In this document: positions 8,126 through 29,681 of the stretch, one piece after another
Position numbering within the stretch: the first letter of the stretch is position 1
Layout: each line of letters opens with the position of its first letter
Assembly: GCF_003664585.1 (NCBI RefSeq)
Contig: NZ_RCHI01000016.1
Coordinates: 1-64,000, forward strand
Direction: 5' to 3'
DNA: 64,000 nt
From: Paenirhodobacter hankyongi
GTDB taxonomy: Bacteria; Pseudomonadota; Alphaproteobacteria; Rhodobacterales; Rhodobacteraceae
Position numbers and translations under genes: made by a program
Notes under the pieces: generated by a model
Databases searched by the model: none
What the model saw: only the letters and a program-made list of their open reading frames with translations
Told to the model about the DNA's origin: nothing

Positions 8126-8223
8126 CAAAATGTTCCCTGTTGTCGCGGGGCAAGTTGGGGCCCCTCGCACGGAAGCGTGATGGAGATGGCACGTTTTCGC
8201 AAATTCAATTGACAGAAGCGCAC

Positions 8224-8253
8224 TATCGGAAAAGTCGATACCGGAATTTATCG
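8224..8253. promoter_or_regulatory. Tandem TATCG/CGATA inverted repeats upstream of ydcS
   Basis: TATCG (8224-8228), CGATA (8236-8240) and TATCG (8249-8253) form two overlapping inverted repeats with 7- and 8-nt spacers. The first contains a T-N11-A core typical of LysR-type regulator sites. It lies about 100 nt upstream of the ydcS start, overlapping the end of the neighbouring LysR gene, so that regulator is the obvious candidate. Confidence 0.4.
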
Positions 8254-9150
8254 TTGCGCCGAATAGCTTTGCGCGGCGCGGATAAATTCACGCGCGGTCT
8301 CGGGAAGGGGCGCGCCCTTGCGCCAGACCACCCCCACCTGCACCACCGGCAGCTTGCCCGAGACATCGCGCGAGACGATCCGGTCACCTTCGAGCGACCA
8401 GCGGCGATAGACGAGCTCGGGCAGAAGGGCGATTCCCGCCCCCGTCGCCACCAGCGAGCGCACCGCCTCGACCGACCGGGTGCGGAAGGCCACGCGCGGG
8501 CGCGCGCCGAGCGCGCTCAACAGGCCCCGCGTCGCCTCCTCGATCTCGTCGAGGCGCAGCATGATCATCGGCTCGCCCACCAGATCCTCGATCGCGACCG
8601 AGGTCGCCTCGGTCAGCCGGTGGCCGTTCGGCAGCCACAGCTGATAGGGCGAGACCTCGAGGATCTCGGTCTGCAGCGCCATCCGGTCGCGCAGCGCCGA
8701 GGTCACCATCACCGCCACATCCAGCTCGCCGCCGATCAGCAGGTGTTCGAGGTAATCGCCGCTGTCCTCGAGCGCGGTGACATCGACATTGGGGTTCGCC
8801 CGGCGAAACCGGGCCAGGATGTCCGAGAGCACATAGCCCGCGACCAGCGAGGTCACGCCGACATGCAGCGACCCGCTGAGCTTTTCGGTGTCCGAGACCA
8901 CCGCCTGCCGGGCGTCGGCGATGCTGGCCAGAATGCCCTGCGCGTGGCGCAGGAACTGGTGCCCCTTCTGGGTGATCTCGAGCCCGCGCGGGTGACGCTC
9001 GAAAAGCGCGACGCCCAGGTCGGCCTCGAGGTCGCGGATCGCCTCGGTCACCGCCGATTGCGAGATCGACAGCGCCAGCGCCGCCCCCGAAACCGTGCCG
9101 CTTTCGGCGGCGGCGATGAAATAGCGCAGCTGGCGGATGGTGAAGGCCAT
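8248..9150 (-). CDS. LysR-type regulator, probable regulator of the ydc operon
   Basis: A 300-residue LysR-type transcriptional regulator. The N-terminal winged helix-turn-helix reads FIAAAESGTVSGAALALSIS followed by QSAVTEAIRDLEADLGVALF, ahead of a substrate-binding domain. I chose ATG 9150 (MAFTIRQLRYF) because GGGAG lies 7 nt upstream and LysR proteins normally begin this way. It is encoded upstream of and in the same direction as ydcSTUV-patD. The TATCG repeats lie at its 3' end, in the ydcS promoter region. The inducer is unknown. Control of the ydc operon is inferred from position. Confidence 0.87.
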   Translation of the reverse strand: MAFTIRQLRYFIAAAESGTVSGAALALSISQSAVTEAIRDLEADLGVALFERHPRGLEITQKGHQFLRHAQGILASIADARQAVVSDTEKLSGSLHVGVTSLVAGYVLSDILARFRRANPNVDVTALEDSGDYLEHLLIGGELDVAVMVTSALRDRMALQTEILEVSPYQLWLPNGHRLTEATSVAIEDLVGEPMIMLRLDEIEEATRGLLSALGARPRVAFRTRSVEAVRSLVATGAGIALLPELVYRRWSLEGDRIVSRDVSGKLPVVQVGVVWRKGAPLPETAREFIRAAQSYSAQR

Positions 9151-9219
9151 GCGGGGGCTCCCTCTCTTGCCCGGGACAAGACCCGCCCGCGCCGGCGCGG
9201 TCAAGCCCCGCGGGCGGGC

Positions 9220-10119
9220 TCAGGGCAGCTCGGCCGGCTCGCCCCAGTCATAGCCGCGCACCAGATCGAGCCAGGCCTGCGCCGCGGCCGACAGATAGGC
9301 GCCGCGGCGCCAGACCATCGCCATCACCCAATCGGTGCCCGGCTCGCTCAGCGGCACGCAGCGCACCGCCTTGCCGGCCCGCTGCTGCGCGATCATCCGC
9401 GGCAGGAAGGTGGTGCCCATCCCCGCCGCGACCAGTTTCACCATGAAGTCGATCTGGCTGCTCACCGCCACCACCTTCGGCTCGAGTTCCGCCCGGCGGC
9501 AGGCGTCGAGGATCACCCGGTGCAGCGCGAAGCCGCTCTCGAACATGATGAAGGGGGTCTCGCGCAGCTCGGCCAGCGCGATCCGCCGCCGCCGCGCCAG
9601 CGGATGGCCAGGCGGCAACAGCGCCACCAGCGGCTCGCGCCGCACAAGCTGCACCTCGAAATCCTCCGAGGTCGGCAGAAGCGCGCCGGCAAAGTCGATC
9701 TCGCCCGCGCGCAGGCTTTCCTCGAGCCGGTCGCTGCCGTGCTCGGTCAGCTGCACCTCGACGCCGGGATAGCGCTGCCGGTAGGTGGCGAAGAGCGGCG
9801 CGAAAAGCGTGCTCGACCCGATCGGCGGCAGGCCGAGCCGCAGCACGCCGCGGCCGAGCCCGCGCAGATCGTCGAGCTCGGCCAGCAGGTCGTCACGGTC
9901 CGCGAGCAACCGCACGCCGCGGCGATAGACGATCTCGCCCGCCGTGGTCAGCACGCTGCGATGCCCGATCCGGTCAAGCAGCGGCACGCCGATCTCGTCC
10001 TCGAGCTGCTTCACCGCCTTGCTGATCGTCGATTGCGTCGCGTTCACCTCGCGCGCGGCCTGGGAAAACCCGCCCTGGCGGACGACCTCGACGAACATGC
10101 GCAGCGGGCGGAATTCCAA
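9220..10119 (-). CDS. LysR-type regulator divergent from cidA/lrgB
   Basis: A 299-residue LysR-type regulator with the HTH at its N-terminus (FSQAAREVNATQSTISKAVK) and an effector domain after residue 90. A TTG start at 10119 is favoured: AAGGAG ends 7 nt before it, and the product then begins MEFRPLRMFVEV, a normal LysR start. The in-frame ATG at 10125 has only 1 nt between it and the same ribosome site. It is divergently transcribed from the CidA/LrgB pair, matching the CidR arrangement of Gram-positive bacteria, where the regulator responds to acetate-type metabolism. The effector here is unknown. Confidence 0.85.
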   Translation of the reverse strand: MEFRPLRMFVEVVRQGGFSQAAREVNATQSTISKAVKQLEDEIGVPLLDRIGHRSVLTTAGEIVYRRGVRLLADRDDLLAELDDLRGLGRGVLRLGLPPIGSSTLFAPLFATYRQRYPGVEVQLTEHGSDRLEESLRAGEIDFAGALLPTSEDFEVQLVRREPLVALLPPGHPLARRRRIALAELRETPFIMFESGFALHRVILDACRRAELEPKVVAVSSQIDFMVKLVAAGMGTTFLPRMIAQQRAGKAVRCVPLSEPGTDWVMAMVWRRGAYLSAAAQAWLDLVRGYDWGEPAELP

Positions 10120-10606: not shown

Positions 10607-11324
10607 TCTTTCCCTCGCCACGCTCGATCCGATGGCGCTGACCGGCGCGAATGTGCTGCTGTGGTCGGTGCTGACGATCGGCTCCTATGCGATCGCCAAG
10701 CGGATCTACCGGCGCTGGACGCATTGGTGGCTGATGCCGCTCGCGGTGGCGCCGGTGCTGGTCGCCGCGGCGGTGCTGGCGCTGCATGTCAGCTACCGCG
10801 ACTACATGCGCTGGACCCATTGGCTGGTGCTGCTGCTGGGGCCGGCGACCGTCGCCTTCGCGGTGCCGATCTACGAACAGCGCCTGCTGATCCGCCGGCA
10901 CTGGCCGGTGCTGCTGGTGGGCATGATCGCCGGCAGCCTGACCGCGATCGTCACCAGCTGGGGCCTGGCCTCGCTGCTCGGTCTTGACGAGGCGCTGCGG
11001 CTGAGCCTGGTGCCGCGCTCGATCAGCACCCCCTTCGCGATGGAGGTCTCGGGCGACATCGGCGGTGTGCCGGACCTGACGGCGGTCTTCGTGGTGATCA
11101 CCGGCATCACCGGTGCGGCGCTCGGCGACATGATCCTCGCCCGCCTGCCCTTCGCCTCGGCGCTGGCACGGGGCGCGCTCTTCGGCATGGGCGCGCATGG
11201 CGCGGGCACGGCGCGCGCGCATCAGATCGGCTCGGCCGAGGGCGCGATCGCCGGCCTCGTGATGGTGCTCGTGGGCATCCTCAACGTGCTGATGGCGCCG
11301 GTCGTGGCGATGATCCTCGCCTGA
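10599..11324 (+). CDS. lrgB: LrgB/CidB family membrane protein
   Basis: A 241-residue membrane protein with multiple hydrophobic segments and the LrgB hallmark SLVPRSISTPFAMEVS, followed by GGVPDLTAVFVVITGITGA and a glycine-rich GALFGMGAHGAGTARAHQIG. LrgB works with LrgA/CidA; the pair is linked to transport of short organic acids and to cell lysis control. It is the second gene of a two-gene operon and is followed by a good intrinsic terminator. Confidence 0.9.
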   Translation: MPDLSLATLDPMALTGANVLLWSVLTIGSYAIAKRIYRRWTHWWLMPLAVAPVLVAAAVLALHVSYRDYMRWTHWLVLLLGPATVAFAVPIYEQRLLIRRHWPVLLVGMIAGSLTAIVTSWGLASLLGLDEALRLSLVPRSISTPFAMEVSGDIGGVPDLTAVFVVITGITGAALGDMILARLPFASALARGALFGMGAHGAGTARAHQIGSAEGAIAGLVMVLVGILNVLMAPVVAMILA

Positions 11325-11347
11325 ATCCCGCCTGCCCGAAACCGCTG

Positions 11348-11379
11348 CGGCGCGCGCCTTCGGGCCCGCGCCGTTTTTT
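11348..11379 (+). terminator. Intrinsic terminator after lrgB
   Basis: CGGCGCG (11348-11354) pairs with CGCGCCG (11367-11373), and inside it GCC-TTCG-GGC forms a stable tetraloop tip with one mismatch. A run of six T follows (11374-11379). It ends the plus-strand cidA-lrgB operon just before the convergent pip gene. Confidence 0.85.
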
Positions 11380-11384
11380 ACGGC

Positions 11385-12314
11385 TCAGACGCCCGCGGCC
11401 TCGACCCCGGTCAGGAAGTCGGACACCGTGCGCAGGCACAGCTCCTTTTCCTCGACATGGGGCATGTGGGCCGAGTGCTCGAACAGCACCCAGCGGGCGC
11501 CGGGGATATTCTCGACCAGGGGCTTCGTCACCAGCGGCGTCGCCTCGTCATACTTGCCCGAGATCACCAGCGCCGGCACGTTCACCAGATGCAGCCGGTC
11601 CTCGATCGTCCAGTCCTTCATCGTGCCGATGACGTGGAACTCGGTCGGCCCGTTCATCGCGCGATAGACGGTGTTGTCGAGATCCATCAGCTCGAAGGTG
11701 CGGGTCACCTCGGGCGGCCAGGGGTCAAGCCGGCAGACGTGGCGCAGATAGAAGACGCGCGAGGCCGCCAGGTAGTCCGGATCGGTCAGCGTGCCCGCAG
11801 CCTCGTGGCGCAACAGCGTCTGCTGCACCTCGGCCGGCAGTTCGGCGCGCAGCCGGTTCGCCTCGGCGACCCAGGTCGGCATGCTGGCCAGACTGTTGGC
11901 GAAGATGATCGCCTTCAGCCCCGCGGGCCGGCGCACCGCATGCTCGCCGCCCAGCATCCCGCCCCAGGACTGGCCGAGATAGGCATAGCGGTCGCGGATG
12001 CCCAGATGGTCAAGCAGGTGGTCGAGCTCGTCGAGGAACAGATCGACCGTCCAGAACTCGGGCCCCTTCTCGGGCAGGTGGGTGGAATTGCCGTTGCCGA
12101 GCTGGTCGTAATGGATCACCGCCCGGCCATCGAGCGCGGCGATCTCCCTGAAGCTGTCGACATAGTCATGCGTGCAGCCCGGCCCGCCATGCGCGATGAC
12201 GAGCGGCAGCTTGCCGTTCTCAAGATCGCCGGTGACCCGATACCAGGTCTGCCAGTCGCGAAACGGCATGAAGCCCTCGCGCGTCGGAAGTTCCGCCTGC
12301 GTCCGATCCTGCAT
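11385..12314 (-). CDS. pip: Proline iminopeptidase family hydrolase (Pip), probable LuxR-solo target
   Basis: An alpha/beta hydrolase of 309 residues, peptidase family S33. The oxyanion motif HGGPG lies at 42-46, the nucleophile Ser116 in GQSWGG (114-119), and the later catalytic Asp and His candidates in GKYDEATP and EHSAHMPH. The family releases N-terminal proline or cleaves small amino-acid amides in the cytoplasm. AGGAGG lies 6 nt before the ATG. It lies directly downstream of a LuxR solo gene, and a lux-box-like sequence sits 58 nt upstream of its start. This is the pip/LuxR arrangement known from plant-associated bacteria, where the LuxR protein activates pip. True substrates may be amides or peptides rather than proline peptides. 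Confidence 0.88.
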
Positions 12315-12372
12315 CTTCGCCCTCCTGTGCCGGTTCCCCGAAACTCTATCGGCGGCGGCAGGCGGCGAGCAG

Positions 12373-12388
12373 CTATCAAAAATGAGGG
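12373..12388 (-). promoter_or_regulatory. lux-box-like operator upstream of pip
   Basis: CTATCAAAAATGAGGG matches 14 of 16 bases of one strand of the perfect palindrome found upstream of the LuxR gene at 13193-13208. It lies between the luxR stop and the pip start, 58 nt before the pip ATG, where an activator site would be expected. Confidence 0.65.
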
Positions 12389-12390
12389 GG

Positions 12391-13152
12391 TCAGATCAGC
12401 CCGCGCCGCACCGCCTCGGCCACGGCATGGCTGCGGTTGCGCGCGCCGAGCTTGCGCACCGCGGCGTTGAGATGCATCACCACCGTCGGCACCGAGCGCT
12501 CGATCAGCCGCGAGGTCTCCTTGGCCGAAAGCCCGCGCGCGGCATGGTCGAGGCATTCGCGCTCGCGCGCGCTCAGCACCGGGCGGGCGGCAGTCAGCCG
12601 CCGTCCGGGCGAGCCGATCTCGTTCTGGAACGCCTGCGCCATCAGCGCAAAGCCCGGCAGCACCTGCAGCGCGACGCGGCCGAAGGCCTGTCCGGGCCCG
12701 TTCCACAGCCCGTTCACCGTGACATAGCCGCCATCGGGCAGATGGATCGGCACGGTGATGCCGTTGACGAAGCCGCTCGCCGAGATGAACTCGACCACCG
12801 GGCGGGAATGCTTGGTCAGATAGCTCTGGCTCAGCTCGCCCGCCTCGGCGTCATAGCTCCAGATGAAGGGCGCGACCGAATTCACCGCCACCGCCTGCAC
12901 CGGATCGTGGCGCGCATAACCGCGCCCGCACCAATAGTCGATCATTCCCGGATCGAGATTGCGCACCACCATCACCGAGGGCGGCATCACCGCCCCGTCC
13001 GCCTCGTGCCGCGCGGGGGTGTAATCATAGATCAGCGCCGCCGCACCGAAGCCGCGCGCGACCTCGAAGAAGCGGTCCACCCCGTCCTCGAGCGTCTCCG
13101 CCCCGAGCCCGGGCCCGAAGCCTCCGACCAGATGCGAGGCAACCGTCAGCAT
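12391..13152 (-). CDS. LuxR solo of the plant-responsive (OryR/XccR/PipR) type
   Basis: A 253-residue LuxR-family regulator: N-terminal autoinducer-binding domain (about 15-175) and C-terminal HTH (194-253, [20 protein letters not shown] onward). Aligning GYARHDP with LasR GYARVDP places Met70 and Trp74 where acyl-homoserine-lactone receptors have Trp and Tyr (TraR W57, Y61); Asp83, Pro84 and Trp98 are kept. This Met/Trp pair is the mark of LuxR solos that answer plant-derived compounds. No luxI is present. The gene sits beside pip and divergent from a peptide transporter, the same neighbourhood as Pseudomonas PipR. GGGGA lies 5 nt before the ATG. The ligand is unknown. Confidence 0.9.
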
Positions 13153-13453
13153 CGCCGTCCCCCTGAACCGCCCCGGTCGCCGGACCGGGCCACTATCATT
13201 TTTGATAGGTTACGCGGGACCGAGCCTTGCCACAATATCGACAGGCAGAGCGCCCGGTGCGCCCGAAACGTGAGAAACGATGCCGACCCGTGGCGAATGG
13301 CCTGAAATTCGAGCAGTCTTCTTGTGCGATCCGTCCAACCCCGCGGACGGTCCGACCTGCTCCGGCCGCCGCCGCGACTCGGGAAAAAACACCGTGCAGC
13401 GCAGGGGCCTTCCCCGCCCTGCCCGGACAAAACAATCCAACAAGGAGTTGACC
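13153..13453. other. Divergent control region between luxR solo and peptide transporter
   Basis: This 301-bp region holds no convincing gene. It contains the perfect lux-box-like palindrome at 13193-13208. The remainder up to the AAGGAG ribosome site at 13442-13447 should hold the promoter and leader of the peptide-transporter operon. I found no second copy of the palindrome within it. Confidence 0.6.
13193..13208. promoter_or_regulatory. Perfect lux-box-like palindrome upstream of luxR solo
   Basis: CTATCA-TTTT-TGATAG is a perfect 6-4-6 inverted repeat. It lies 41 nt upstream of the LuxR start and about 245 nt upstream of the divergent binding-protein start, so it could control both. A near copy lies in front of pip. 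Confidence 0.7.
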
Positions 13454-15136
13454 ATGATCACGAAGCTCACCCCCGCGCGCCCCGGACGCTGGGCGGCGAC
13501 GGTCGCGACGATCGCCCTTCTGGCCGGGCTCGCGCCCGGCTTCGCCGCGGCCCAGGACGCGCATCGCGGCGGCACGCTCAGGCTGGTGTCGGTGTCCTCG
13601 CAGGGCACGCTCGACCCGCATGTGAACTACACCTCGCAGTTCTGGCAGCTGTACGCCTTCCTCTATGACGGGCTCGTCGGCTTCAAGAAGGTCGGCGGCC
13701 CGGAAAGCAAGGAGGTCGTCGCCGATCTCGCCGCGGCCCTGCCCGAGGTGTCGAACGACGGCAAGACCTATACCTTCACCCTGCGCAAGGGGGTGAAGTT
13801 CTCGAACGGCAAGGAGATGACCACCGACGACGTGGTGGCCTCGTTCCAGCGCATCTTCAAGGTGCTGGGCCCGACCGCGGGCACCTTCTACAACGGCATC
13901 GTCGGCGCCGATCAGTGCCTTGCCGCGCCGGCCGACTGCACGCTTGCGGGCGGCATCGTGGCCGACAAGGCCGCCGGCACGGTGACGATCAATCTCGTCG
14001 CGCCCGATCCGGAATTCCTGTTCAAGCTGAGCGCGCCGCATGCCTCGATCCTGCCGGCCGAGACGACGGCCAAGGACAACGGCAACGCGCCGATCCCGGG
14101 CACCGGCGCCTACATGGTGAAAAGCTATGATCCGAACAACTCGATGGTGATCGTGCGCAACCCGGCCTTCAGCGAATGGAGCAAGGACGCGCAGCCCGAA
14201 GGCCATGTCGACGAGATCGACTATACCTTCGGCGGCACCGAGGAAGCCGCGGTGAACGCGATCCTGAACGGCCAGGCCGACTGGATGTTCGACCAGCCGC
14301 CGGCCGACCGTCTGGCCGAACTGAGCACCGCCGCCCCCGACCAGATCCACCTCGCGCCGCTGTCGGCGTGGTGGTACGCGCCGATGAATGTGAACCTCGC
14401 GCCCTTCAACGACGTGCGCGTGCGCCAGGCGCTGAACTACGCCATCGACCGCGACGCGCTCGTCTCGCTCTTCGGCGGGCCGGCGCTCGCGCAGCCCGTC
14501 TGTCAGGTGCTGCCGCCCGAGTTCCCGGGCCATGTGGATCAATGCCAATACACGCTCGATCCCGGCGACAGCTGGAGCGCGCCCGACATGGACAAGGCGA
14601 TGCAGCTGGTCGAGGAAAGCGGCACCAAGGGCGAGAAGGTCACCATCGTGACCGAGGACAACGCCGCCTCGCGCGGGATCGGCACCTATCTGCAGTCGGT
14701 GCTGAGCGATCTGGGCTACGAGGCCGCGGTGCAGACGATCTCGGGCGATATCCAGTTCACCTATATCCAGAACACCAACAACAAGGTGCAGCTGTCGATC
14801 AGCCAGTGGTATGCCGATTATCCGGCCGCCTCGAACTTCCTCAACGTGCTCTTCGGCTGTGACTCGTTCCACCCCGGTTCGGATGCCTCGATCAACATCG
14901 CGGGCTTCTGCGACAAGGGCATCGACGACCGGATGAAGGCCGCGATCGCGCTTGGCGCGACCGATCCGGCCGCCGCCGATGCGGAATGGGCGAAGATCGA
15001 CGGCGCGGTGATGGAGGCCGCGCCGGCGCTGCCGCTCTTCACCCCGAAGCAGGTCGACCTGCTCAGCACCCGGGTCGGCAACTATGCCTTCTCGAACCAG
15101 TATCACTGGCTGATCGCGAACGCCTGGGTGCAGTGA
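13454..15136 (+). CDS. Peptide ABC transporter substrate-binding protein (DppA/OppA family)
   Basis: A 560-residue family-5 binding protein. The signal peptide (residues 1-33, ending GFAAA) directs it to the periplasm. Family motifs are LDPHVNY near 50, YTFTLRKGVKFSNGKEMTTDDV near 105, PIPGTGAYMVKSY and VRQALNYAIDRDALV. It should bind peptides or related small compounds. I chose ATG 13454, preceded by AAGGAG at 6 nt and starting a signal peptide. It is the first gene of the operon dppA-dppC-dppB-ATPase-pepA divergent from the LuxR solo. In PipR-type systems the neighbouring peptide transporter is needed for response to the signal, so this protein is a candidate signal importer. Confidence 0.88.
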   Translation: MITKLTPARPGRWAATVATIALLAGLAPGFAAAQDAHRGGTLRLVSVSSQGTLDPHVNYTSQFWQLYAFLYDGLVGFKKVGGPESKEVVADLAAALPEVSNDGKTYTFTLRKGVKFSNGKEMTTDDVVASFQRIFKVLGPTAGTFYNGIVGADQCLAAPADCTLAGGIVADKAAGTVTINLVAPDPEFLFKLSAPHASILPAETTAKDNGNAPIPGTGAYMVKSYDPNNSMVIVRNPAFSEWSKDAQPEGHVDEIDYTFGGTEEAAVNAILNGQADWMFDQPPADRLAELSTAAPDQIHLAPLSAWWYAPMNVNLAPFNDVRVRQALNYAIDRDALVSLFGGPALAQPVCQVLPPEFPGHVDQCQYTLDPGDSWSAPDMDKAMQLVEESGTKGEKVTIVTEDNAASRGIGTYLQSVLSDLGYEAAVQTISGDIQFTYIQNTNNKVQLSISQWYADYPAASNFLNVLFGCDSFHPGSDASINIAGFCDKGIDDRMKAAIALGATDPAAADAEWAKIDGAVMEAAPALPLFTPKQVDLLSTRVGNYAFSNQYHWLIANAWVQ

Positions 15137-15161
15137 GCCGCGACAAGAACAGGGGCCCGAG

Positions 15162-16205
15162 ATGACGACCGACCAACCCGAAACGGGCTCCATGCCTCCG
15201 GCGGATGCGGCCGGGGGCGCGCTGCCGCCGCCCGCCGGCCCCTGGCGCCGTGCGCTTCAGGGCCTTGCCTCGAGCCGCACCGCGGTGCTCTCGGGGCTCG
15301 GTCTTGTGCTCATCGTGCTGGCGACGGTGCTGGCGCCGGTCTATGCGAAACATGTCGCGCAGACCGATCCCTTCCGCTCGGGGCTGAGCGCCAAGATCAT
15401 GATCGACGGCAAGCGCAGCCCGGTGATGGAGCGCTCGACCGAGGGGCTTGGCCTTGGCGTCACGCCGATCGGGCCGACCTGGGGGCCGAAATATTTCCTC
15501 GGCGCCGACACCCAGGGCCGCGACGTCGCGGCGCGGCTGCTCTATGGCGGGCAGAATTCGCTGGTTATCGCCGGGGCGGCAACGCTGCTGTGCCTGGTCT
15601 GCGCCGCGGTGATCGGCATCGTCGCGGGCTATGCCGGTGGCAGGGTCGATACCGTGCTGTCGAACCTGATCGACATGATCTGGGCCTTTCCGGTCTATCT
15701 GCTGGCGATCTCGCTCTCGATCGTGATGCTCGGCAAGACCTTCGAGATCGGGCCGATCCACATCAGTTCCTCGAGCCTCGTGGTGCCGATCATCATCATC
15801 GGGCTGGTCTATGTGCCCTATGTCGCGCGGCCGGTGCGCGGCCGGGTGATCGCCATCACCAACAGCGACTTCGTGCTGGCGGCGCGCGGGCTGGGCATCC
15901 GCCCCTCGCGCATCCTGTGGCGCCACATCCTGCCCAATGTCGCGACCACGCTGATCGTCTTTGCGCCGATGCTGATGGCGCTGAACATCGTCACCGAAAG
16001 CTCGCTGTCCTTCCTGTCGGTCGGCGTGCAGGCGCCGAATGCCAGCTGGGGCACGATCTTGCAGGACGGTCAGGCGCTGCTCTACTCGCGCCCGGTCGTG
16101 TCGATGGCGCCCGGCATCGCGATCATGGTGACGGTGATGCTGCTCAACCTGTTCGGGGACGTGCTGCGCGACATCCTCGACCCGAAATCCGTGCGGGGGC
16201 GCTGA
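15162..16205 (+). CDS. Peptide ABC transporter permease (DppC family)
   Basis: A 347-residue inner-membrane permease with an N-terminal cytoplasmic tail, a first membrane segment near residues 45-65, the DppC-type motif FLGADTQGRDVAARLLYGGQ and the ATPase-contact loop AARGLGIRPSRILWRHILPN. It pairs with the DppB-type permease encoded next, whose start overlaps its stop by one base (TGATG). It imports peptides or similar compounds with the other operon products. Confidence 0.88.
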   Translation: MTTDQPETGSMPPADAAGGALPPPAGPWRRALQGLASSRTAVLSGLGLVLIVLATVLAPVYAKHVAQTDPFRSGLSAKIMIDGKRSPVMERSTEGLGLGVTPIGPTWGPKYFLGADTQGRDVAARLLYGGQNSLVIAGAATLLCLVCAAVIGIVAGYAGGRVDTVLSNLIDMIWAFPVYLLAISLSIVMLGKTFEIGPIHISSSSLVVPIIIIGLVYVPYVARPVRGRVIAITNSDFVLAARGLGIRPSRILWRHILPNVATTLIVFAPMLMALNIVTESSLSFLSVGVQAPNASWGTILQDGQALLYSRPVVSMAPGIAIMVTVMLLNLFGDVLRDILDPKSVRGR

Positions 16206-17176
16206 TGCTGGCCGTGATCCTGTCGCGCCTCGCGCGGATGGTGGTGGTGATGGTCGGCATCAGCGTCATCACCTTCCTGATCTTCTTCGCCACCCCGGGC
16301 GCCGACCCGGCGGCGCGCATTGCCGGCCGCAACGCCGCCCCCGAGACGGTGACCGCCGTGCGCCACGACTTCGGCCTCGATCGGCCGATCTGGGTGCAAT
16401 ACGGGGTGATGATGCGCAAGATGTTCGTCACCGGCGACCTGACCTCCTTCGTCAACCGCGGCCAGAAGATCGTGCCGACGCTGACCGCCGCCGCGCCGGT
16501 GACGCTGTCGCTCGTCGCGGGCGCCGCGGTGCTGTGGATGGCGCTTGGCGCCGCCACCGGGATCATCGCCGCCGCCTTCAAGGACCGGCTGCCCGACAAG
16601 ATCCTGATGGGCGTGTCGATGATGGCGGTCGCCATGCCGGTGTTCTGGGTCGGCGAGATGGTGAACCTTGTCACCCAGAGCCGGCTGCATGACACCTGGG
16701 CCTTCTCCTGGGTGCCGCCGCTCGGCTATGTGCCGCTGAGCGAAAGCCCGGCGCGCTGGTTCCTCGCCCTCATCTTCCCGTGGATCACGCTCTCGTTCCT
16801 CTACATCGGGCTTTACGGCCGGATGCTGCGCACCGGGATCATCGAGACCTATCAGGAAGATTATATCCGCACTGCCCGCGCCAAGGGGCTGACGGCGCGG
16901 CGGGTGCTGCTCAAGCATGCCACCCGCGCCGCGATCATCCCGGTCGTCATCATGTTCGGCATGGATTTCGGCGTGCTCGTCGGCGGCGCCGCGGTCCTGA
17001 CCGAGGTCGTCTTCGGCCTGAACGGCGTCGGCCGGCTGACCTATCAGGCGCTGAAGGTGCTCGACCTGCCGATGATCATGGCCGCGGTGCTCTACGCCTC
17101 CTTCTTCGTCGTGCTCGCGAATGCGGTCGTCGACCTTCTGTGCATCCTGATCGACCCGAGGCTGCGGCGCAAATGA
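16205..17176 (+). CDS. Peptide ABC transporter permease (DppB family)
   Basis: A 323-residue inner-membrane permease: N-terminal membrane segment (VVVMVGISVITFLIFF), then the family features PAARIAGRNAAPETVTAVRH and the contact loop RTARAKGLTARRVLLKHATR. The open frame continues far upstream, but the true start is ATG 16205, which overlaps the preceding stop and gives the normal DppB N-terminus. Its stop overlaps the next start (ATGA), so translation is coupled. Confidence 0.88.
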   Translation: MLAVILSRLARMVVVMVGISVITFLIFFATPGADPAARIAGRNAAPETVTAVRHDFGLDRPIWVQYGVMMRKMFVTGDLTSFVNRGQKIVPTLTAAAPVTLSLVAGAAVLWMALGAATGIIAAAFKDRLPDKILMGVSMMAVAMPVFWVGEMVNLVTQSRLHDTWAFSWVPPLGYVPLSESPARWFLALIFPWITLSFLYIGLYGRMLRTGIIETYQEDYIRTARAKGLTARRVLLKHATRAAIIPVVIMFGMDFGVLVGGAAVLTEVVFGLNGVGRLTYQALKVLDLPMIMAAVLYASFFVVLANAVVDLLCILIDPRLRRK

Positions 17177-19035
17177 CCGAAAGACCGACCTTCCCCATGG
17201 CGGACCACCCCACCCCCGGCGCGCCCTCCCCGATCCTGTCGATCCGTAACCTGCGTGTCGCCTTCCAGGGCGCCCGCGGCGCCTGGAACGAGGTGGTGCA
17301 CGGGCTGTCGCTGACCGTCGCGGCGGGCGAGACCGTCGCGCTGGTGGGCGAATCCGGCTCCGGCAAGAGCGTCACCTCGCTTGCGCTGATGCGGCTTCTC
17401 GACCCCGCGACCAGCCGCATCACCGGCCAGGTCACCCTCGACGGCGCCGAGGTGCTGTCGCTCTCCGAGGCCGAGATGGTCGCACGGGTGCGCGGCCGCA
17501 TTGCGGCGATGATCTTCCAGGAGCCGATGACCAGCCTGCACCCGATCTACACGGTCGGCGAGCAGCTGATCGAGGCGCTGTGCTGTCACCGCCCGATGCC
17601 GCGCGCCGAGGCGCGCCGCGCCGCCGTCGCGCTGATGGAGCGGGTGCGCATCCCCGATGCCGCGCGCCGGCTCGATGACTATCCGCACGCCTTCTCGGGC
17701 GGGATGCGGCAGCGGGTGATGATCGCGATGGCGCTGGCCTCGCGGCCGAAGCTGCTGATCGCAGACGAACCGACGACCGCGCTCGATGTCACCGTTCAGG
17801 GCGAGATCCTGTCGCTTCTCAAGGAGTTGCAGGAAGACTACGGGATGGCGATGCTGTTCATCACGCATGACATGGGGGTGGTGGCCGAGATGGCCGACCG
17901 CACCGTCGTGATGCTGCGCGGCGATGTCGTCGAGGAAGGCCCGACGGCGCAGGTGTTCCACGCGCCGCGCGCGCCCTACACCCGCGCGCTGCTGGCAAGC
18001 GTGCCGGCGCTCGGCTCGATGCGGGGCGAACCGGTGCCGCTGCGCTTTCCCGCGATCGATCCGGCGAGCGGGGCCGCGACGCCGGGCCTGCCGCTCGCCC
18101 GCCAGCCCGACCTCGGCACGCCGCTTCTCGAGGTGCGCGACCTCGTCAACCGGTTCGACGTGCGCGGCGGGCTGCTGCGGCGCAAGGTGGCGCGGGTGCA
18201 TGCGGTCGAGAACGTCTCCTTCGCGATCCACCCGGCCGAGACGCTGGCGCTGGTGGGCGAGTCGGGCTGCGGCAAGTCGACCACCGGGCGCTCGATCATC
18301 CGGCTTGCCGGGGGCACCTCGTCAGGCTCGGTGCGACTGGATGCGACCGAACTCTTCACCCTCTCGCCCGGCCGGCTGCGGCTGCAGCGGCGCGAGATCC
18401 AGATGATCCCGCAAGACCCGCTCGCCAGCCTCAACCCGCGCATGACGATCGGCGAGGCACTGGTCGAGCCCTTCCTCGAGCACCGCATGGGCCCCGCCGC
18501 CGAGGCCCGCGCCAAGGCCGCGCGGCTGATGGATCAGGTCGGGCTGAGCCCCGCCATGCTCGAGCGCTTTCCGCATGAATTCTCGGGCGGGCAGCGGCAG
18601 CGGCTGTGCATCGCCCGCGCGCTGATGCTCGACCCGCGGGTGATCATCGCCGACGAAAGCGTCTCGGCGCTCGATGTCTCGGTGAAGGCGCAGGTGGTGA
18701 ACCTGCTGCTCGACATCCAGGAGCGCACCGGCATCGCCTTCCTCTTCATCTCGCATGACATCGCCGTGGTCGAGCGGATCAGCCATCGCATCGCGGTGAT
18801 GTATCAGGGCGAGATCGTCGAGATCGGGCCGCGCGCCGCGGTGATGGAGACGCCGCAGCACCCCTATACCCGCCGCCTGATCGAGGCGGTGGCCGTGCCC
18901 GACCCGGCCCGGCGTCACCTGCGCCGCACACAGCCGCCGTCCGAGCTGATGAACCCGATCCGTCCGCTCGATTTCGTGCCGCCCGAACGGCGCTACCGCG
19001 AGGCCGGCCCCGGCCATTTCGTGCGCGAGGACTGA
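17173..19035 (+). CDS. Fused peptide ABC transporter ATPase (DppD-DppF type)
   Basis: A 620-residue protein with two complete ABC domains in tandem, equal to DppD and DppF joined. Domain one has Walker A GESGSGKS and signature FSGGMRQR; domain two (from about residue 315) has Walker A GESGCGKS and signature FSGGQRQR. Each is followed by an oligopeptide-ATPase C-terminal region ([11 protein letters not shown] and [13 protein letters not shown]). One polypeptide therefore supplies both nucleotide-binding sites, as in GsiA. It overlaps the permease gene by four bases and energises that transporter. Confidence 0.9.
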
Positions 19036-19089
19036 TCCGGGCGGCCCGCCCGGCCGCCCTCCCCCGTTTTTCCCTGAGGTCTTGATCCC

Positions 19090-20547
19090 ATGCCCGTCAC
19101 CCTGTCCGCCGTTGCCACCACGTCCCGCACGCTTGTCCTGCCGCTCGATGCGACGCTCGCCCTTGGGCCGCGCGCCGCGGCCCTTGATGCCGCGGCGGGC
19201 GGCGCGATCACCCGCGCGCTTGCCGCCGCCCGCTTCACTGCCGCCGAGGGCACCTGCCTCGACCTCTTCGCGCTGCCGGGTCTTGATGCCGCGCGGATCG
19301 TGGTGCTGGGCCTCGGCGCGCCCGGCGCCGGGGCGCTGGCCGCCGCGCGCGCGGGGGCCGCGCTTGCCCGCCATCTGGAGACCGCCGGCGAAAGCACCGC
19401 GACGCTGATCTTCGACGGCACGGATGCCGCGCAGCTTGCGGCGCTGGTGCATGGCGTCCGGCTGGGGAACTATCGTTTCGGGCTGACCGCGCAGGGAGAA
19501 AGCCCCTTCGCGCTGAGCCTGACGCTTGCCACCGATCTCGAGCCCGGCGCGGCGCTCTCGCGGATGGAGGCGGTGGCCGAGGGCGTGTGCCTTGCCCGCG
19601 ACCTGGTGAACTATCCGGCCAGCCACCTGAACCCCGACAGCTTCGCCGATTTCCTTGCCCCGCTCGCCGCCGCCGGCATCGCGATCGAGGTGCTCGATGC
19701 CGAGGCGCTGGCGCGGATGGGGATGAACGCGGTGCTGGCCGTCGGCGCGGGCTCGGCCCGCGCGCCGAAGGTGATCGTGCTGCGCTATCGCCCGGCGGGC
19801 AGCCCCGTCGCGCCGATCGCCCTTGTCGGCAAGGGGATCTGCTTCGACGCCGGCGGACTGGCGATCAAGTCGGGCCCGCAGATGTTCGACATGCGCGCCG
19901 ACATGAGCGGTGCCGCCGCGGTCGCCGGCACGATGCTGGCCCTTGCCCGGCAGGGCAGCCGCGAGCATGTCGTGGGCGTTCTGGGCATCGCCGAGAACCT
20001 GCTCTCGGGCAGCTCCTACAAGCCCGGCGACATCGTCACCACCTTCGCCGGCAAGACCGTCGAGGTCTATGACACCGATTGCGAGGGGCGCATGGTCCTG
20101 GCCGACATCCTTGCCCTTGCCGCGCGCAGCGAGCCGCGGGTGATCGTCGATCTCGCGACGCTGACCTATTCGGTGATGCAGGGGCTGGGCCATGTCTTCG
20201 CCGGGCTCTTCGCCACCGACGACGGGCTGGCCGAGGCACTGCTGCGCGCCGGCGAGACGGTGGGCGAGCGGTTCTGGCGACTGCCGCTCGATCCGGCCTA
20301 TCAGGAGGCGCTGCGCTCGCCGGTGGCCGATCTGCGCCAGCACGCCGAGGACCTGCACGACGGCGACGCGCCCCATGCCGCGGCCTTCCTGCACGCGTTC
20401 ACCGGCGGCTTCCCCTGGGCGCATCTCGACATCGCCGGCAAGGAGCTTGCGGCGAAGGAGATGCCCCTTGCCCGCCGCGGCGGCACCGGCTTCGGCGTGC
20501 GCCTGCTCGAGGAATGGATCGCCGGCCTCGCCCCCGCCGAGGGCTGA
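19090..20547 (+). CDS. pepA: Leucyl aminopeptidase, family M17, variant signature
   Basis: A 485-residue cytosolic aminopeptidase. Metal and catalytic residues are visible: Lys248 and Asp253 in VGKGICFD, Lys260, Asp271 in RADMSGAAA, and Asp330/Glu332 in DTDCEGRMVL with Arg334. The usual family signature is NTDAEGRL, so the changes to D, C and M are atypical though the ligands are kept. It would cut N-terminal residues from peptides brought in by the transporter. It lies 54 nt after the ATPase gene in the same operon and is the last gene before a 320-bp leader region. Its partnership with Pip suggests complete peptide breakdown. Confidence 0.88.
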   Translation: MPVTLSAVATTSRTLVLPLDATLALGPRAAALDAAAGGAITRALAAARFTAAEGTCLDLFALPGLDAARIVVLGLGAPGAGALAAARAGAALARHLETAGESTATLIFDGTDAAQLAALVHGVRLGNYRFGLTAQGESPFALSLTLATDLEPGAALSRMEAVAEGVCLARDLVNYPASHLNPDSFADFLAPLAAAGIAIEVLDAEALARMGMNAVLAVGAGSARAPKVIVLRYRPAGSPVAPIALVGKGICFDAGGLAIKSGPQMFDMRADMSGAAAVAGTMLALARQGSREHVVGVLGIAENLLSGSSYKPGDIVTTFAGKTVEVYDTDCEGRMVLADILALAARSEPRVIVDLATLTYSVMQGLGHVFAGLFATDDGLAEALLRAGETVGERFWRLPLDPAYQEALRSPVADLRQHAEDLHDGDAPHAAAFLHAFTGGFPWAHLDIAGKELAAKEMPLARRGGTGFGVRLLEEWIAGLAPAEG

Positions 20548-20615
20548 CGCCCCCGACTCCGCCGCGGGCGGGCGCCCCGGACGGGCCCACCCCGGCACTG
20601 GTTGCGATTCAGGAT

Positions 20616-20665
20616 CAGCCCGTTTTCGGATCACTCTCCGGGTAAAGAGATCAAAAAACGGGCTG
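20616..20665. repeat. Inverted repeat after pepA
   Basis: CAGCCCGTTTT (20616-20626) and AAAACGGGCTG (20655-20665) are perfect complements around a 28-nt loop that can itself pair further (CTCT with AGAG). It lies 69 nt past the pepA stop. It could be a processed 3' structure or part of the amide leader. There is no T-tract after it on the plus strand. Confidence 0.5.
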
Positions 20666-20802
20666 AAATCCGCGGCATCGCCGCGCAGCACCTGTCCATT
20701 CGGACCATCGGCCGATTTTACGCTTGTCTCGCGCGGCCGGCCGATGCCAGCTTCAGGGCACATCGGACACTCCCGAACGGCATTCGCGCCTCGCTTCGAC
20801 AC

Positions 20803-20834
20803 CGCCTCCCGCGGCTCGTCGGCGGGGCGTTTTT
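20803..20834 (+). terminator. Leader terminator (attenuator) before amiC
   Basis: CGCC (20803-20806) pairs with GGCG (20826-20829) and CCGC (20809-20812) with GCGG (20822-20825), a 2-nt bulge between them, with loop GGCTCGTCG. Five T follow at once (20830-20834). It stands 33 nt before the amiC ATG, so transcription must read through it. AmiR-type ANTAR proteins are known antiterminators. Confidence 0.65.
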
Positions 20835-20867
20835 GCGTTTCGGACATCGCACAGGCGTCAGGCGGAC

Positions 20868-21968
20868 ATGAAGACACAGGTCGAACTCGGATTGCTCTAC
20901 TCCCGTTCCGGGAGCTATTCGCTGATCTCCGAGGCCTGCCGCACCGGGGCGCTGAGCGCCATCGACCATATCAACGCCGATCCCGCGGTTCCGCTGCGCT
21001 TCGTGCCGGTCGAGCGCGACCCGCGCGGCAATATCGACGCCTACGGCCCGCTGTGCGAGGAAATCCTGCGCGACAGCTCGGCGCGGCACGTGATCGGCTG
21101 CGTCACCTCCTGGAGCCGCAAGGAGGTGATCCCGACCCTCGAGAAGGCCGGCGGCACGCTGTGGTATCCGGTGCCCTATGAGGGCTTCGAGGCCTCGGAC
21201 CACGTCGTCTACACCCACGCCTGCCCGAACCAGCACCTGCTGCCGCTGCTGGGCTGGGCCTTCGCCCGGCTCGGCCGGCGCGGCTATCTGACCGGCTCGA
21301 ACTACATCTGGGGCTGGGAGATGAACCGGCTGGCGCGCGAGGTGATCTCGGGCGCGGGCGGCGAGGTGCTGGGCGAGCGCTATCTGCCGCTCGGCTCGGT
21401 CGATATCGGCCGGATGATCGAGGAGATCCGCGCCACCCGCCCCGATTTCATCCTGAACAACCTGATCGGCCCGTCGCAATATGCCTTCCTCGCCGCCTAT
21501 CGCCGGCTTGGCGAGGAGGTCGCGCATTTCCGCCCCGAGACCTGCCCGATCCTGTCGTGCAACCTCACCGAATGCGAGCTGGCCGCGATCGAGCCCGCCG
21601 CGGCCGAGGGGCTGGTCGCCGCCGGCCCCTATTTCCGCGGCGCGACCGGCTGGCCCGGGGCGCAGCGCAGCTTCGGCTCCTCGCACGAGGCGGCGGCCTG
21701 GTCGGCGGTGCACCGGCTGGCGCGGCTGCTGTCGGGCCATGCGGGGGCAACGCGCGAAAGCCTCGCGCAGCTGCTCGCCCATGCGCCGGGCGGCACCGAG
21801 GGCATCGACCCCGCCACCCATCACACCGAACTGCCGGTGCTGATCGCACAGGTCGAGAACGGCGCCTTCGCGATCCGCGAACGCTTCGCGGCGCGGATGG
21901 GCGACCCCTATCTTTCCCATGGGCGCGAGGCGGCGCTGCCCGCCGCGCCGCGGCTGAAGGTGGTGTGA
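20868..21968 (+). CDS. amiC: AmiC-like amide-sensing binding protein
   Basis: A 366-residue type I periplasmic-binding-fold protein without a signal peptide, as for Pseudomonas AmiC (385 residues), a cytoplasmic amide sensor that holds AmiR inactive. The start MKTQVELGLLYSRSGSYSLI, the run YLTGSNYIWGWEMNR and the C-terminal AQVENGAFAI resemble AmiC and related UrtA proteins. I chose ATG 20868. Its stop overlaps the amiR-like start by one base, as expected for partners made in fixed ratio. The ligand should be a short amide or amide-like compound. Confidence 0.85.
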   Translation: MKTQVELGLLYSRSGSYSLISEACRTGALSAIDHINADPAVPLRFVPVERDPRGNIDAYGPLCEEILRDSSARHVIGCVTSWSRKEVIPTLEKAGGTLWYPVPYEGFEASDHVVYTHACPNQHLLPLLGWAFARLGRRGYLTGSNYIWGWEMNRLAREVISGAGGEVLGERYLPLGSVDIGRMIEEIRATRPDFILNNLIGPSQYAFLAAYRRLGEEVAHFRPETCPILSCNLTECELAAIEPAAAEGLVAAGPYFRGATGWPGAQRSFGSSHEAAAWSAVHRLARLLSGHAGATRESLAQLLAHAPGGTEGIDPATHHTELPVLIAQVENGAFAIRERFAARMGDPYLSHGREAALPAAPRLKVV

Positions 21969-22576
21969 TGAAGCGCAAGGTCCGGATCGCGAACCTCGGC
22001 GGCGCGCGCGCCTATATCCTGCACCGGCCGCACCCGACGGTGCAGGCGCTCGAGCGCCAGCTGCGCGCCATCGGGCTGACGGTGGTGCAATGCTGGCCCG
22101 AGCTGCCGGCCGAGGCGATCGCCGCCGATTTCCTGTTCTTCGACGTCGACCAGGGCTTCGACGAGCAATTCCCCTGGCGCCCGGGCGAAAGCCCGATGCC
22201 GATGATCGCGCTGATCGGATCGGAGGCACCGGGCCGGATCGAATGGTCGCTCGAGGCCGGGGCGCATGCGCAGCTGCTCAAGCCCGTGGGCGACGGCGGC
22301 GCCTATTCGGCGCTGCTGATCGCGCGGCTCGCCTTCGAGGCACGGCAGTCGCTCTCGGCACAGATCGCCGATTTGCGCCGCCGCCTCGACGAGCGCCAGA
22401 CCGTGGTGCGCGCCGTCACCCTTTTGGCCGCGCGCGGCAAGGGCGAGGCCGCGGCCTATGACCAGCTGCGGCAGATGGCGATGGCCTGGCAGGTGAGTTT
22501 CGAGGATGCGGCGCGGCGCGTCGTGGCCAGTCATGACAGACAGGAGGACGGCAATGACCGACGTGATCTCGGCTGA
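21968..22576 (+). CDS. amiR: AmiR-like ANTAR antiterminator
   Basis: A 202-residue regulator: N-terminal pseudo-receiver fold (about 1-125), a helical linker (LSAQIADLRRRLDERQTVV) and a C-terminal ANTAR RNA-binding domain (about 145-195: VRAVTLLAARGKGEAAAYDQ followed by LRQMAMAWQVSFEDAARRVV). AmiR acts by binding leader RNA and preventing termination; AmiC sequesters it without amide. A strong terminator before amiC gives it a plausible target. ATG 21968 overlaps the amiC stop. Its 3' end overlaps the next gene by 23 nt. Confidence 0.87.
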   Translation: MKRKVRIANLGGARAYILHRPHPTVQALERQLRAIGLTVVQCWPELPAEAIAADFLFFDVDQGFDEQFPWRPGESPMPMIALIGSEAPGRIEWSLEAGAHAQLLKPVGDGGAYSALLIARLAFEARQSLSAQIADLRRRLDERQTVVRAVTLLAARGKGEAAAYDQLRQMAMAWQVSFEDAARRVVASHDRQEDGNDRRDLG

Positions 22577-23441
22577 GGCCGCCCCGCAACCGCAAGGCGC
22601 GCTGCGCCGGCTGCTGCAGTGCAAGCTTGCCCTGATCGGGCTGGCGCTGATCGTGGTGGTGACGGCGGGGGCCATCTTCGCCCCCTGGATCGCCCCCTTC
22701 GCGCCCGAGGACCAGATGTTCGACGGGCTCACGCTCGAGGGCGCGCCGATGCCGCCCGGCGACAAGTTCTGGCTCGGCACCGACCTGCTCGGCCGCGACC
22801 TGTTCTCGCGCATCCTGTTCGGGGCGCGCACCTCGCTGGTGATCGGCGTGGTGGCGAACGGGCTCGCGCTGCTGATCGGCACGCTGATCGGCGTCACCGC
22901 GGGCTATTTCCGCGGCTGGATCGGCGCCGTGCTGATGCGCTTCACCGATCTGATGATGGCCTTCCCGGCGCTCTTGCTGGCGATCTGCCTCGCGGCGATC
23001 TTCACCCCCTCGCTGTGGATCGTGGCGATGGTGATCGCGCTGGTGAACTGGGTGCAGACCGCCCGCGTCGTCTACACCGAGACCTCGGCGCTGGCCGAGC
23101 GCGAATTCGTCGCGGCCGAGCGCACGCTCGGCGCCGGCACCGCGCGGATCCTGTTTCGCCACATCCTGCCGCATCTGGTGCCGATGATCATCGTCTGGGG
23201 CACGCTCGGGATCTCGACCACGGTGCTGCTCGAGGCGACGCTCAGCTATCTGGGCGTGGGGGTGCAGCCGCCGACGCCGAGCTGGGGCAACATCATCTTC
23301 GAGAACCAGACCTATTTCCAGGCCGCGCCGTGGCTTGTCTTCATCCCCGGCGCCGCGATCCTTGCGCTCGCGCTGGCCTTCAACCTTGTGGGCGACGCGC
23401 TGCGTGACGTGCTCGACCCGACCCAGCGGGGGCGTGACTGA
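22554..23441 (+). CDS. ABC transporter permease (DppC family), amide operon
   Basis: A 295-residue inner-membrane permease with a first membrane segment at about 24-44, the DppC motif FWLGTDLLGRDLFSRILFGA and the ATPase-contact loop AAERTLGAGTARILFRHILP. I chose ATG 22554, preceded by AGGAGG at 6 nt, which gives a normal N-terminus; a longer frame begins inside amiR. It is part of a second Dpp-type transporter. Because it sits among amiC, amiR and an amidase gene, the substrate is more likely an amide-bearing compound than a plain peptide. Confidence 0.87.
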   Translation: MTDVISAEAAPQPQGALRRLLQCKLALIGLALIVVVTAGAIFAPWIAPFAPEDQMFDGLTLEGAPMPPGDKFWLGTDLLGRDLFSRILFGARTSLVIGVVANGLALLIGTLIGVTAGYFRGWIGAVLMRFTDLMMAFPALLLAICLAAIFTPSLWIVAMVIALVNWVQTARVVYTETSALAEREFVAAERTLGAGTARILFRHILPHLVPMIIVWGTLGISTTVLLEATLSYLGVGVQPPTPSWGNIIFENQTYFQAAPWLVFIPGAAILALALAFNLVGDALRDVLDPTQRGRD

Positions 23442-24361
23442 TGCTGGCCTATGTGTTCCGCCGCCTCGTGCAATCCGCACTGATCCTGCTTGGCGTGTCC
23501 TTCATCACCTTCCTGCTGCTCTATGTGCTGCCCGCCGACCCGGTGCGCCAGATCGCCGGGCGCTCGGCCACCCCCGAGACGGTCGAGAACATCCGCCGGC
23601 AGCTGGGCCTCGACCAGCCCTTCGTGGTGCAATACGGTCGCTATCTGGCCGGGCTGTTCCAGGGCGACATGGGCCGCAGCTACCTGCAGAAGACCGAGGT
23701 CGCGGCGCTGATCATGGCGCGGCTGCCGGCGACGCTGCTGCTGATGCTGGGCGCGATCGTGGCCGAGCTGGCGATCGGGCTCAGCCTCGGCGTTCTGGCC
23801 GCGGTGCGCCGCGGCGGTGCGCTTGACCAGTCGCTGATGATCACCTCCTTCGTCGCGGTCTCGGCGCCGCAATTCGTCGTCGGGCTGCTGCTGCTCTACG
23901 TCTTCGCGGTCAAGCTCGGCTGGTTCCCGATCGGCGGCTATGGCCATGCCTCGAACCTCGTGCTGCCGGCGATGACGCTCGGGATCATGGGCTCGGGCTG
24001 GTACAGCCGGATGATGCGCTCCTCGATGATCGACGTGCTGCGTTCGGACTACATCCGCACCGCCCGCGCCAAGGGGCTCGGCCGGGCCCGGGTGCTGGCG
24101 CTGCATGCGATGCCGAACGCGATCCTGCCGATCATCGCGATGATCGGCATCGACATCGGCATCTTCATGTCGGGCATCGTCGTCGTCGAGAGCGTCTTCG
24201 GCTGGCCCGGCATCGGCCAGCTCGCCTGGCAGGCGATCCAGCGCGTCGACATCCCGATCATCATGGGCGTCACGCTGGTCTCGGCCTGCGCCATCGTGCT
24301 CGGCAACCTTCTGGCCGACCTCGTCACCCCCTTCATCGATCCGCGCATCAAGCTGCGCTGA
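23441..24361 (+). CDS. ABC transporter permease (DppB family), amide operon
   Basis: A 306-residue inner-membrane permease beginning MLAYVFRRLVQSALILLGVS, with the DppB features PVRQIAGRSATPETVENIRR, GDMGRSYLQKTEV and the contact loop RTARAKGLGRARVLALHAMP. The start overlaps the previous stop by one base (TGATG). It is followed by a short hairpin (CCCCG at 24376-24380, CGGGG at 24386-24390) before the binding-protein gene. Confidence 0.88.
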   Translation: MLAYVFRRLVQSALILLGVSFITFLLLYVLPADPVRQIAGRSATPETVENIRRQLGLDQPFVVQYGRYLAGLFQGDMGRSYLQKTEVAALIMARLPATLLLMLGAIVAELAIGLSLGVLAAVRRGGALDQSLMITSFVAVSAPQFVVGLLLLYVFAVKLGWFPIGGYGHASNLVLPAMTLGIMGSGWYSRMMRSSMIDVLRSDYIRTARAKGLGRARVLALHAMPNAILPIIAMIGIDIGIFMSGIVVVESVFGWPGIGQLAWQAIQRVDIPIIMGVTLVSACAIVLGNLLADLVTPFIDPRIKLR

Positions 24362-24432
24362 GCCTTTCCCGAAGACCCCGCCTTACGGGGCCCCACTCAC
24401 GACCACCACCGATCCAACAGACGGAGACCAAG

Positions 24433-26073: not shown

Positions 26074-26079
26074 ACGCAT

Positions 26080-29345: not shown

Positions 29346-29681
29346 TCACTTCAGCGCGACATAGGTCTCGGGATCGAGGCTGGCAAAGCGCACGGCGACC
29401 GAAGCGCCCCCCGCCACCGGCCCGATCAGGGCGCGCAGCTCGCCGCCAAGGGCGCGCAGCTTCTCGGCCGTGCGCTCGGGCCGCGGCAGGATCATCAGCT
29501 CGATGTTCACCGCCGGCTGATCGGCCAGCCCCCAGACCGGCACGATCACCACCTGACAGGCGGCCGGCGGCACGGCAAGATCGCGGCACAGCAGCGCGCG
29601 CAGCTCGGGCAGCGCCGCGATCAGCGCCGGCTTGTGCGCGGGCCAGAGCGCCTCGTCGACATAGAGTTTCACATTCGGCAT
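29346..29681 (-). CDS. Small tautomerase-superfamily protein
   Basis: A 111-residue protein beginning MPNVKLYVDE. After removal of Met, Pro would be the N-terminal residue, as in the catalytic Pro1 of the tautomerase superfamily (4-oxalocrotonate tautomerase, CHMI, MIF). Size is close to CHMI-type members. The rest is weakly similar by eye, so the assignment is tentative. I chose ATG 29681 because GGAG lies 8 nt upstream; the longer frame has no homology. It is the last gene of a catabolic operon, where an isomerase acting on a ring-cleavage or enol product would fit. Confidence 0.6.
   Translation of the reverse strand: MPNVKLYVDEALWPAHKPALIAALPELRALLCRDLAVPPAACQVVIVPVWGLADQPAVNIELMILPRPERTAEKLRALGGELRALIGPVAGGASVAVRFASLDPETYVALK

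Follow-up and report, generated by a model that had tools for sequence, protein, structure and literature searches.

What does a LuxR-type regulator sense when its gene is flanked by a proline iminopeptidase gene (pip) on one side and by a divergently transcribed peptide-type ATP-binding cassette (ABC) importer on the other? This question is raised by a locus of Paenirhodobacter hankyongi, located at positions 11385-20547 of the window, i.e., bases 1-64000 of contig NZ_RCHI01000016.1 (C8 in our numbering) of the 3.80-Mb genome. A first-pass annotation, made from the sequence alone, had described it as a complete plant-responsive LuxR-solo locus with the marks of OryR, XccR, PsoR, NesR and PipR. 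We consider it probable that the locus is a LuxR-solo core of the PAB/OryR type, composed of LuxR, operator and pip, in which the signal importer has been exchanged, and that it works as proposed below.

The gene map of the first-pass annotation, with pip directly downstream of luxR and a peptide-type ABC transporter divergent from them, was confirmed by the sequence and by domain matches. The pip gene (11385-12314, minus strand) encodes an S33 proline iminopeptidase-family hydrolase of 309 aa, which scored 263.7 bits against NCBIfam TIGR01250 (cut-off 167.65), matched PDB entry 7a6g (E 2e-143), and contains both the HGGPG and the GQSWGG motifs. The luxR gene (12391-13152, minus strand) encodes a protein of 253 aa in which an Autoind_bind (E 3.5e-19) and a GerE (E 2.2e-9) domain were recognized. 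The divergent run on the plus strand (13454-20547) starts with an Opp-type solute-binding protein (SBP; 13454-15136; Pfam SBP_bac_5, E 1.5e-72), followed by an OppC-like permease (15162-16205) and an OppB-like permease (16205-17176; its start overlaps the preceding stop in TGATG), both recognized by domain or family profile matches. A GsiA-like double ABC ATPase (17173-19035) with two ABC_tran stretches, which scored 737 bits against NF007613 and thus under the family cut-off of 1077, precedes the last gene, encoding an M17 leucyl-aminopeptidase-type enzyme (19090-20547; Peptidase_M17, E 8.2e-106; motifs GKGICFDAGG and DTDCEGR). The best start of the SBP is 13454, where AAGGAG lies just 5' and the N-terminus is signal-peptide-like; the longer in-frame start at 13280 was disfavoured on these grounds. 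A leader open reading frame (ORF) from 13280 was also rejected as a conserved peptide, the frame being lost in loci L013 and L123. The stretch 13255-13310 of the importer leader is conserved across the four genomes with a locus of the window type, but no reading frame is conserved in it.

The residues of the ligand pocket were compared by alignment. Positions 70, 74, 83, 84 and 98 of the window LuxR read M-W-D-P-W (Met70, Trp74, Asp83, Pro84 and Trp98, as annotated at first pass) and are equivalent to W57, Y61, D70, P71 and W85 of TraR. Both the Trp and the Tyr of the acyl-homoserine-lactone (AHL) pocket are replaced, and the protein does not fit the AHL receptors of the LuxR/TraR/LasR kind; W-Y-D-P-W stands at these positions in both LuxRs of this genome that are paired with luxI. 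The closest named relatives by LuxR are Sinirhodobacter (now Paenirhodobacter) ferrireducens (96%) and Rhodobacter maris (79%), and the next are other Alphaproteobacteria, mostly Rhizobiales, at 44-53%. In the DNA-binding domain, all 16 LuxR rows aligned share the stretch VPTVVMHLN.

A maximum likelihood tree of 48 LuxR rows was calculated; because its outgroup branches are long, the separation of groups was used and not their branching order. The window LuxR grouped with those of S. ferrireducens, R. maris and one further genus member (four rows, support 100/98). This group was nested among alphaproteobacterial sequences (31 rows, 96/99), which in turn belong to a PAB set of 41 rows (94/98), and the clustering with AHL receptors that the first-pass annotation had named as the contrary outcome was looked for and not found. 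Among the PAB rows, 39 of 41 have pip in the stretch seen, the exceptions being L067 and L139. Outside the PAB set, W-Y was read in four LuxRs, namely the two of this genome that are paired with luxI and two from plasmids that have an AHL synthase gene next to them. Four rows of family f44, which we take as Pseudomonas-like, read W-W. From the tree, the residues, the pip neighbour and the lux-box-like operators described below, the assignment of the window LuxR as a PAB/OryR-subfamily LuxR solo nested with Rhizobiales NesR-type proteins is supported. The first-pass annotation had taken the M/W pair and the pip neighbourhood as common marks of this group; the window LuxR fits PAB/OryR in both, but the M/W pair does not mark PipR, which keeps the first Trp according to PMC4981722, and the W-W of the f44 rows agrees with this. 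Some relatives depart from the common arrangement. Loci L119 and L120 have a PAB-like LuxR with Leu-Trp instead of Met-Trp and pip near but not adjacent, and neither a divergent importer nor an operator match was found in them, while L139 (genome G692) has a PAB-clade LuxR with M/W, and neither pip nor a full aap set was detected in its 19-kb stretch. In the plasmid collection, LuxR was matched (E up to 1e-3) in 561 records, 295 of them Rhizobium, with identities below 60% throughout; many of the listed rows with higher scores resemble the NesR type, and the lower ones belong to other LuxR families.

Two operator-like sites are present in the expected gaps of the locus. The main site, CTATCATTTTTGATAG, is a perfect palindrome of CTATCA-N4-TGATAG with the CT-N12-AG layout of a lux box, and is located at 13193-13208 in the luxR-importer gap, where its centre is 49 bp from the luxR start and 253 bp from the SBP start. 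It is the sole exact match in the genome. A second, degenerate copy (12373-12388), matching 10 of the 12 specified positions, is located between the luxR stop and the pip start with its centre 67 bp before pip, a score that 0 of 100 shuffles of the gap reached. A lux-box-like inverted repeat, though an imperfect one, is found before pip.

The operator pattern was derived from the window and then tested on other loci, with a match defined as at least 11 of 12 positions. The named related loci are the best 80 of 135 confirmed; they were found with peptide patterns including the M/W stretch, are mostly from Rhizobiales, and are not independent. Loci whose nearest divergent gene is aapA or aapB were called aap-type; they fall into 14 clusters when LuxR is grouped at about 80% ungapped identity, and two of these clusters hold 46 of the 78 loci. 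All 78 luxR-importer gaps of the aap-type loci matched at 11 or 12 positions, and so did all 77 luxR-pip gaps (L067, which has no pip, was left out). In the controls, none of 1989 random 200-bp windows of the aap-type and window-type loci reached 11/12 and two reached 10, and no gap reached 11/12 with the reversed pattern. All four window-type genomes have a perfect site on the importer side. The pattern is conserved across loci with different importers. In the genus, the co-occurrence is all-or-none: luxR, the SBP gene and the exact operator are found together in the same 4 of 18 genomes, each with the exact pattern once, and the other 14 are without it.

The pattern was less regular farther away. 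The loci of genomes G239, G255 and G263 have a related importer-side site, CTATAAGATTCGATAG or a close variant, and the pip-side match of this group is 8/12, within chance. Loci L111, L112 and L114 fall off the 11-12 rule, with pip-side best matches of 8/12 that are within chance (14-22 of 100 shuffles reached 8). Matches of 8 and 9 of 12 were obtained for Rahnella L146 and of 11 and 10 for Pannonibacter L145. In the four f44 loci, CTAGC-N6-GCTAG before pip replaces CTATCA-N4-TGATAG. Three operons with the order pip-SBP-permease-permease-ATPase (L115-L117) have the same importer type but no luxR in the stretch seen; before their pip genes, 300 bp gave only 7-8/12, and the site is absent. A genome-wide search allowing at most 2 mismatches gave 15 sites, compared with 17 for a control pattern, and no regulon is claimed beyond the locus.

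The importer is the part that differs from the known systems. In the 80 named loci, pip is just downstream of luxR in 79, and aapA with the full aapB-F set is present in 76; L023 is without aapA and L067 without aapB-F and pip, and the remaining two, S. ferrireducens and R. maris, have the window-type importer. The S. meliloti locus L081, which we take to be the ortholog of the NesR locus, resembles the window in its M/W LuxR (46% identical), downstream pip (74%) and both operators (11/12), but its divergent operon is aapA-F, with the S33 peptidase first and the SBP last, whereas the window has an SBP-first Opp importer with M17. Over 415 columns, the identity between the window SBP and the AapF of this locus is 25.5%. 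When the PDB was searched with the window SBP, the best match was 8upi, and the AapF entry 7kz8, which matched in part, ranked 30th of the 30 sequences below E 1e-10. No AapF ortholog was found in the genome itself, where five matches at E up to 1e-20 were all at most 33% identical. The divergent gene for an S33 peptidase AapA is also absent, and the M17 enzyme occupies its place in the window operon. By these comparisons the importer is not orthologous to AapB-F, and aapA-F are replaced by an unrelated Opp-type importer and an M17 aminopeptidase, so that the equivalence to the PipR/NesR set is not supported. An AlphaFold model of the SBP built from 11 sequences was poor (mean pLDDT 56.8). In locus L067, from a metagenome-assembled genome of Neorhizobium, luxR, aapA and the importer-side operator are kept and pip and aapB-F were not seen; this is possibly a decaying locus.

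The window-type importer was detected in 8/295 family genomes (E up to 1e-100), with different partners. In G239, G255 and G263, it is accompanied by pip and by an M/W LuxR that shares no more than 33-34% identity with the window LuxR. In G284, G077 and G166, the importer is located after pip, and their stretches of 7.5-19 kb gave no luxR match at E 1e-15. A second importer copy of G255 (L113) comes with an M17 gene, and its 19-kb stretch contains no pip and no luxR. In the LuxR tree, the regulators of G239, G255 and G263 form a separate deep branch, and in the pip tree, the window pip was placed with aap-type alphaproteobacterial pips and not with those of the three genomes, at modest support (90/88). 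These placements suggest that one importer type was coupled twice, to two PAB regulator lineages. Relatives of the window LuxR were found in 8/295 family genomes (even sample, E up to 1e-30) and 12/398 phylum genomes (even sample, E up to 1e-25), and the locus is therefore patchy in distribution. No patch of foreign composition was observed at the locus (GC 65-74% in 1-kb steps over 5-32 kb), no tRNA was found in the window, and Rfam gave no match in 11000-29500.

Several points weigh against the exchanged-importer reading. The distance from operator to aapA is 59-75 bp in 79 aap-type loci, compared with 253 bp to the window SBP, so that control of the importer requires an unmapped promoter and a long leader, and the main site could serve luxR alone. 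A sigma-70 consensus scan detected no promoter near the main site; neither a consensus promoter nor an intrinsic terminator was found in 13100-13500 or 20400-22600. The pip-side site reaches 11/12 in only one of the four window-type genomes and 10/12 in the other three. Furthermore, the M/W signature of the 80 loci is partly a product of selection by the search patterns and not independent evidence. A conserved CACAWTAT block (13231-13238, plus strand) in the four-genome alignment is a candidate -10 region; if it serves as such, the operator centre might lie about 43-45 bp before the importer-side transcript start, predicted near 13245, with a leader of about 210 nt.

With these reservations, the exchanged-importer system would work as follows. 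The SBP and the Opp-type transporter would import a small peptide-like or amide compound, possibly linked to plants, and LuxR, whose pocket is without the Trp/Tyr pair of AHL receptors, would bind the imported compound and dock at CTATCA-N4-TGATAG. The docked LuxR would raise transcription of the importer-M17 operon, perhaps of luxR too, and of pip. Trimming of the compound or of related peptides by Pip and the M17 enzyme would then both nourish the cell and weaken the signal. The uptake and consumption steps are modelled on PipR, for which the response was lost on mutation of the importer and was excessive in peptidase mutants (PMC4981722). The PipR/PipA/AapA-F system of Pseudomonas sp. GM79 resembles the window in having a LuxR solo flanked by pip and a peptidase-importer operon and in having an inverted repeat before pipA, but differs in the first pocket residue, as mentioned above, and in the importer and second peptidase (PMC4981722). 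OryR and XccR of Xanthomonas share the PAB subfamily and the pip neighbour but are described with an APC-family transporter and no linked ABC importer in PMC4981722, unlike the table of PMC10134790, which gives a peptide transporter. PsrR of Kosakonia is also a PAB solo with pip, but is gammaproteobacterial with putative boxes of other sequence (PMC7301841), and its transporter neighbour is a glutathione transporter (PMC10134790).

The alternative that survives best is a plain nutrient-peptide uptake operon, in which LuxR senses imported dietary peptides of any source and plants are irrelevant. It overlaps with the exchanged-importer reading, from which it differs in the origin of the ligand, and we give it an even chance. 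An Opp importer, Pip and M17 make up a peptide uptake and trimming set, the similar pip-importer operons of G284, G077 and G166 occur without a detected luxR in the stretches covered, one carrier is named Rhodobacter maris, and PipR answers peptone and the tripeptide SHS (PMC4981722). The group of the regulator nevertheless has members responsive to plant material (PMC4981722, PMC10134790), a point tempered by the PAB members PsaR2 and PsrR, which did not respond to plant material when tested (PsrR: PMC7301841).

It is unlikely, in our estimation, that the Pip core and the module following it form an amide-sensing supersystem that jointly handles amide compounds. Directly after the locus, the plus strand carries an AmiC-AmiR-Opp-FmdA run (20868-28841), a possible functional partner, consisting of AmiC-like (20868-21968), AmiR/ANTAR (21968-22576), OppC (22506-23441), OppB (23441-24361), SBP (24433-26073), acetamidase/formamidase FmdA (26080-27039) and double ATPase (27036-28841) genes, all on the plus strand. 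HEHEAA, the ligand of PipR (PMC10134790), is an acetamide as its name is spelled out in PMC7301841, and the module is therefore a lead worth testing. The module borders the Pip locus in the window and G046; AmiC, AmiR and OppC are beside aapF in three Rhizobium-type loci (L024, L027 and L050); the whole run is beside pip in Ciceribacter L089; and FmdA alone is beside pip-SBP in G166. L117 is also among the loci where the module or parts of it adjoin Pip genes. Against such a partnership, a strong (at least 60%) importer or FmdA gene of the module is in the flanks of only 4/80 named loci, FmdA is common (44/295 family genomes) and in G077, G239 and G284 is not close to the Pip importer, and in R. 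maris and G297 the sequence covered past M17, some 1.7-2.5 kb, gave no AmiC. AmiC matches were obtained in 25/40 genomes searched, four of which (L012, L024, L027 and L050) have one within the flanks of about 9 kb; L023 is a fifth, at 27% only.

That the LuxR is an AHL-responsive receptor for the cell's own two LuxI enzymes is highly improbable, since, although two luxI genes exist in the genome, the pocket Trp and Tyr are replaced, the protein is placed apart from the luxI-paired LuxRs in the tree, and no luxI is adjacent. The earlier statement that there is no luxI was correct for the 64-kb window, but not for the genome, where the two genes are on contigs C9 and C34. These luxR-luxI pairs are at 8783-9430 and 9479-10165 of L124 (both plus strand) and at 7884-8495 and 8548-9138 of L125, and the first pair has an extra 145-aa ORF (8284-8721, minus strand), divergent from the full LuxR, that matches the autoinducer-binding domain only.

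PAB solos with pip and a peptide transporter have been listed for Rhodobacter (PMC4338825, PMC10134790), and the basic interpretation is therefore not new. Transporter variety in PAB loci is also known, with the APC type in Xanthomonas (PMC4981722) and the glutathione type in Kosakonia (PMC10134790). What appears to be new is the operator pattern shared across loci with non-orthologous importers, together with the SBP-first Opp/M17 variant. Our literature search found no published variant of this kind and no published operator consensus spanning such loci, the supplementary palindrome table of PMC4338825 being outside its scope. More tentatively, LuxR, operator and pip may constitute a portable sensing module and may twice have acquired an SBP-first Opp importer not related to AapB-F, in one case with a NesR-like LuxR as in the window and in the other with the separate deep PAB branch of G239, G255 and G263, each with its own operator variant; exchange of the importer might then retune the sensed compound with the DNA circuit unchanged, and the recurrent AmiC-AmiR-FmdA neighbour might be a hint that the ligands are amides.

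Only a minority of PAB LuxR solos have a known ligand, and other ligands than HEHEAA must exist because it is not bound by a close homolog of the transporter protein linked to PipR (PMC10134790). The operator pattern provides a ready reporter and a route to further loci by sequence. Loci that retain the regulator, operator and pip next to another importer offer a swap experiment made by nature, in which it can be asked if specificity of sensing is set by the importer.

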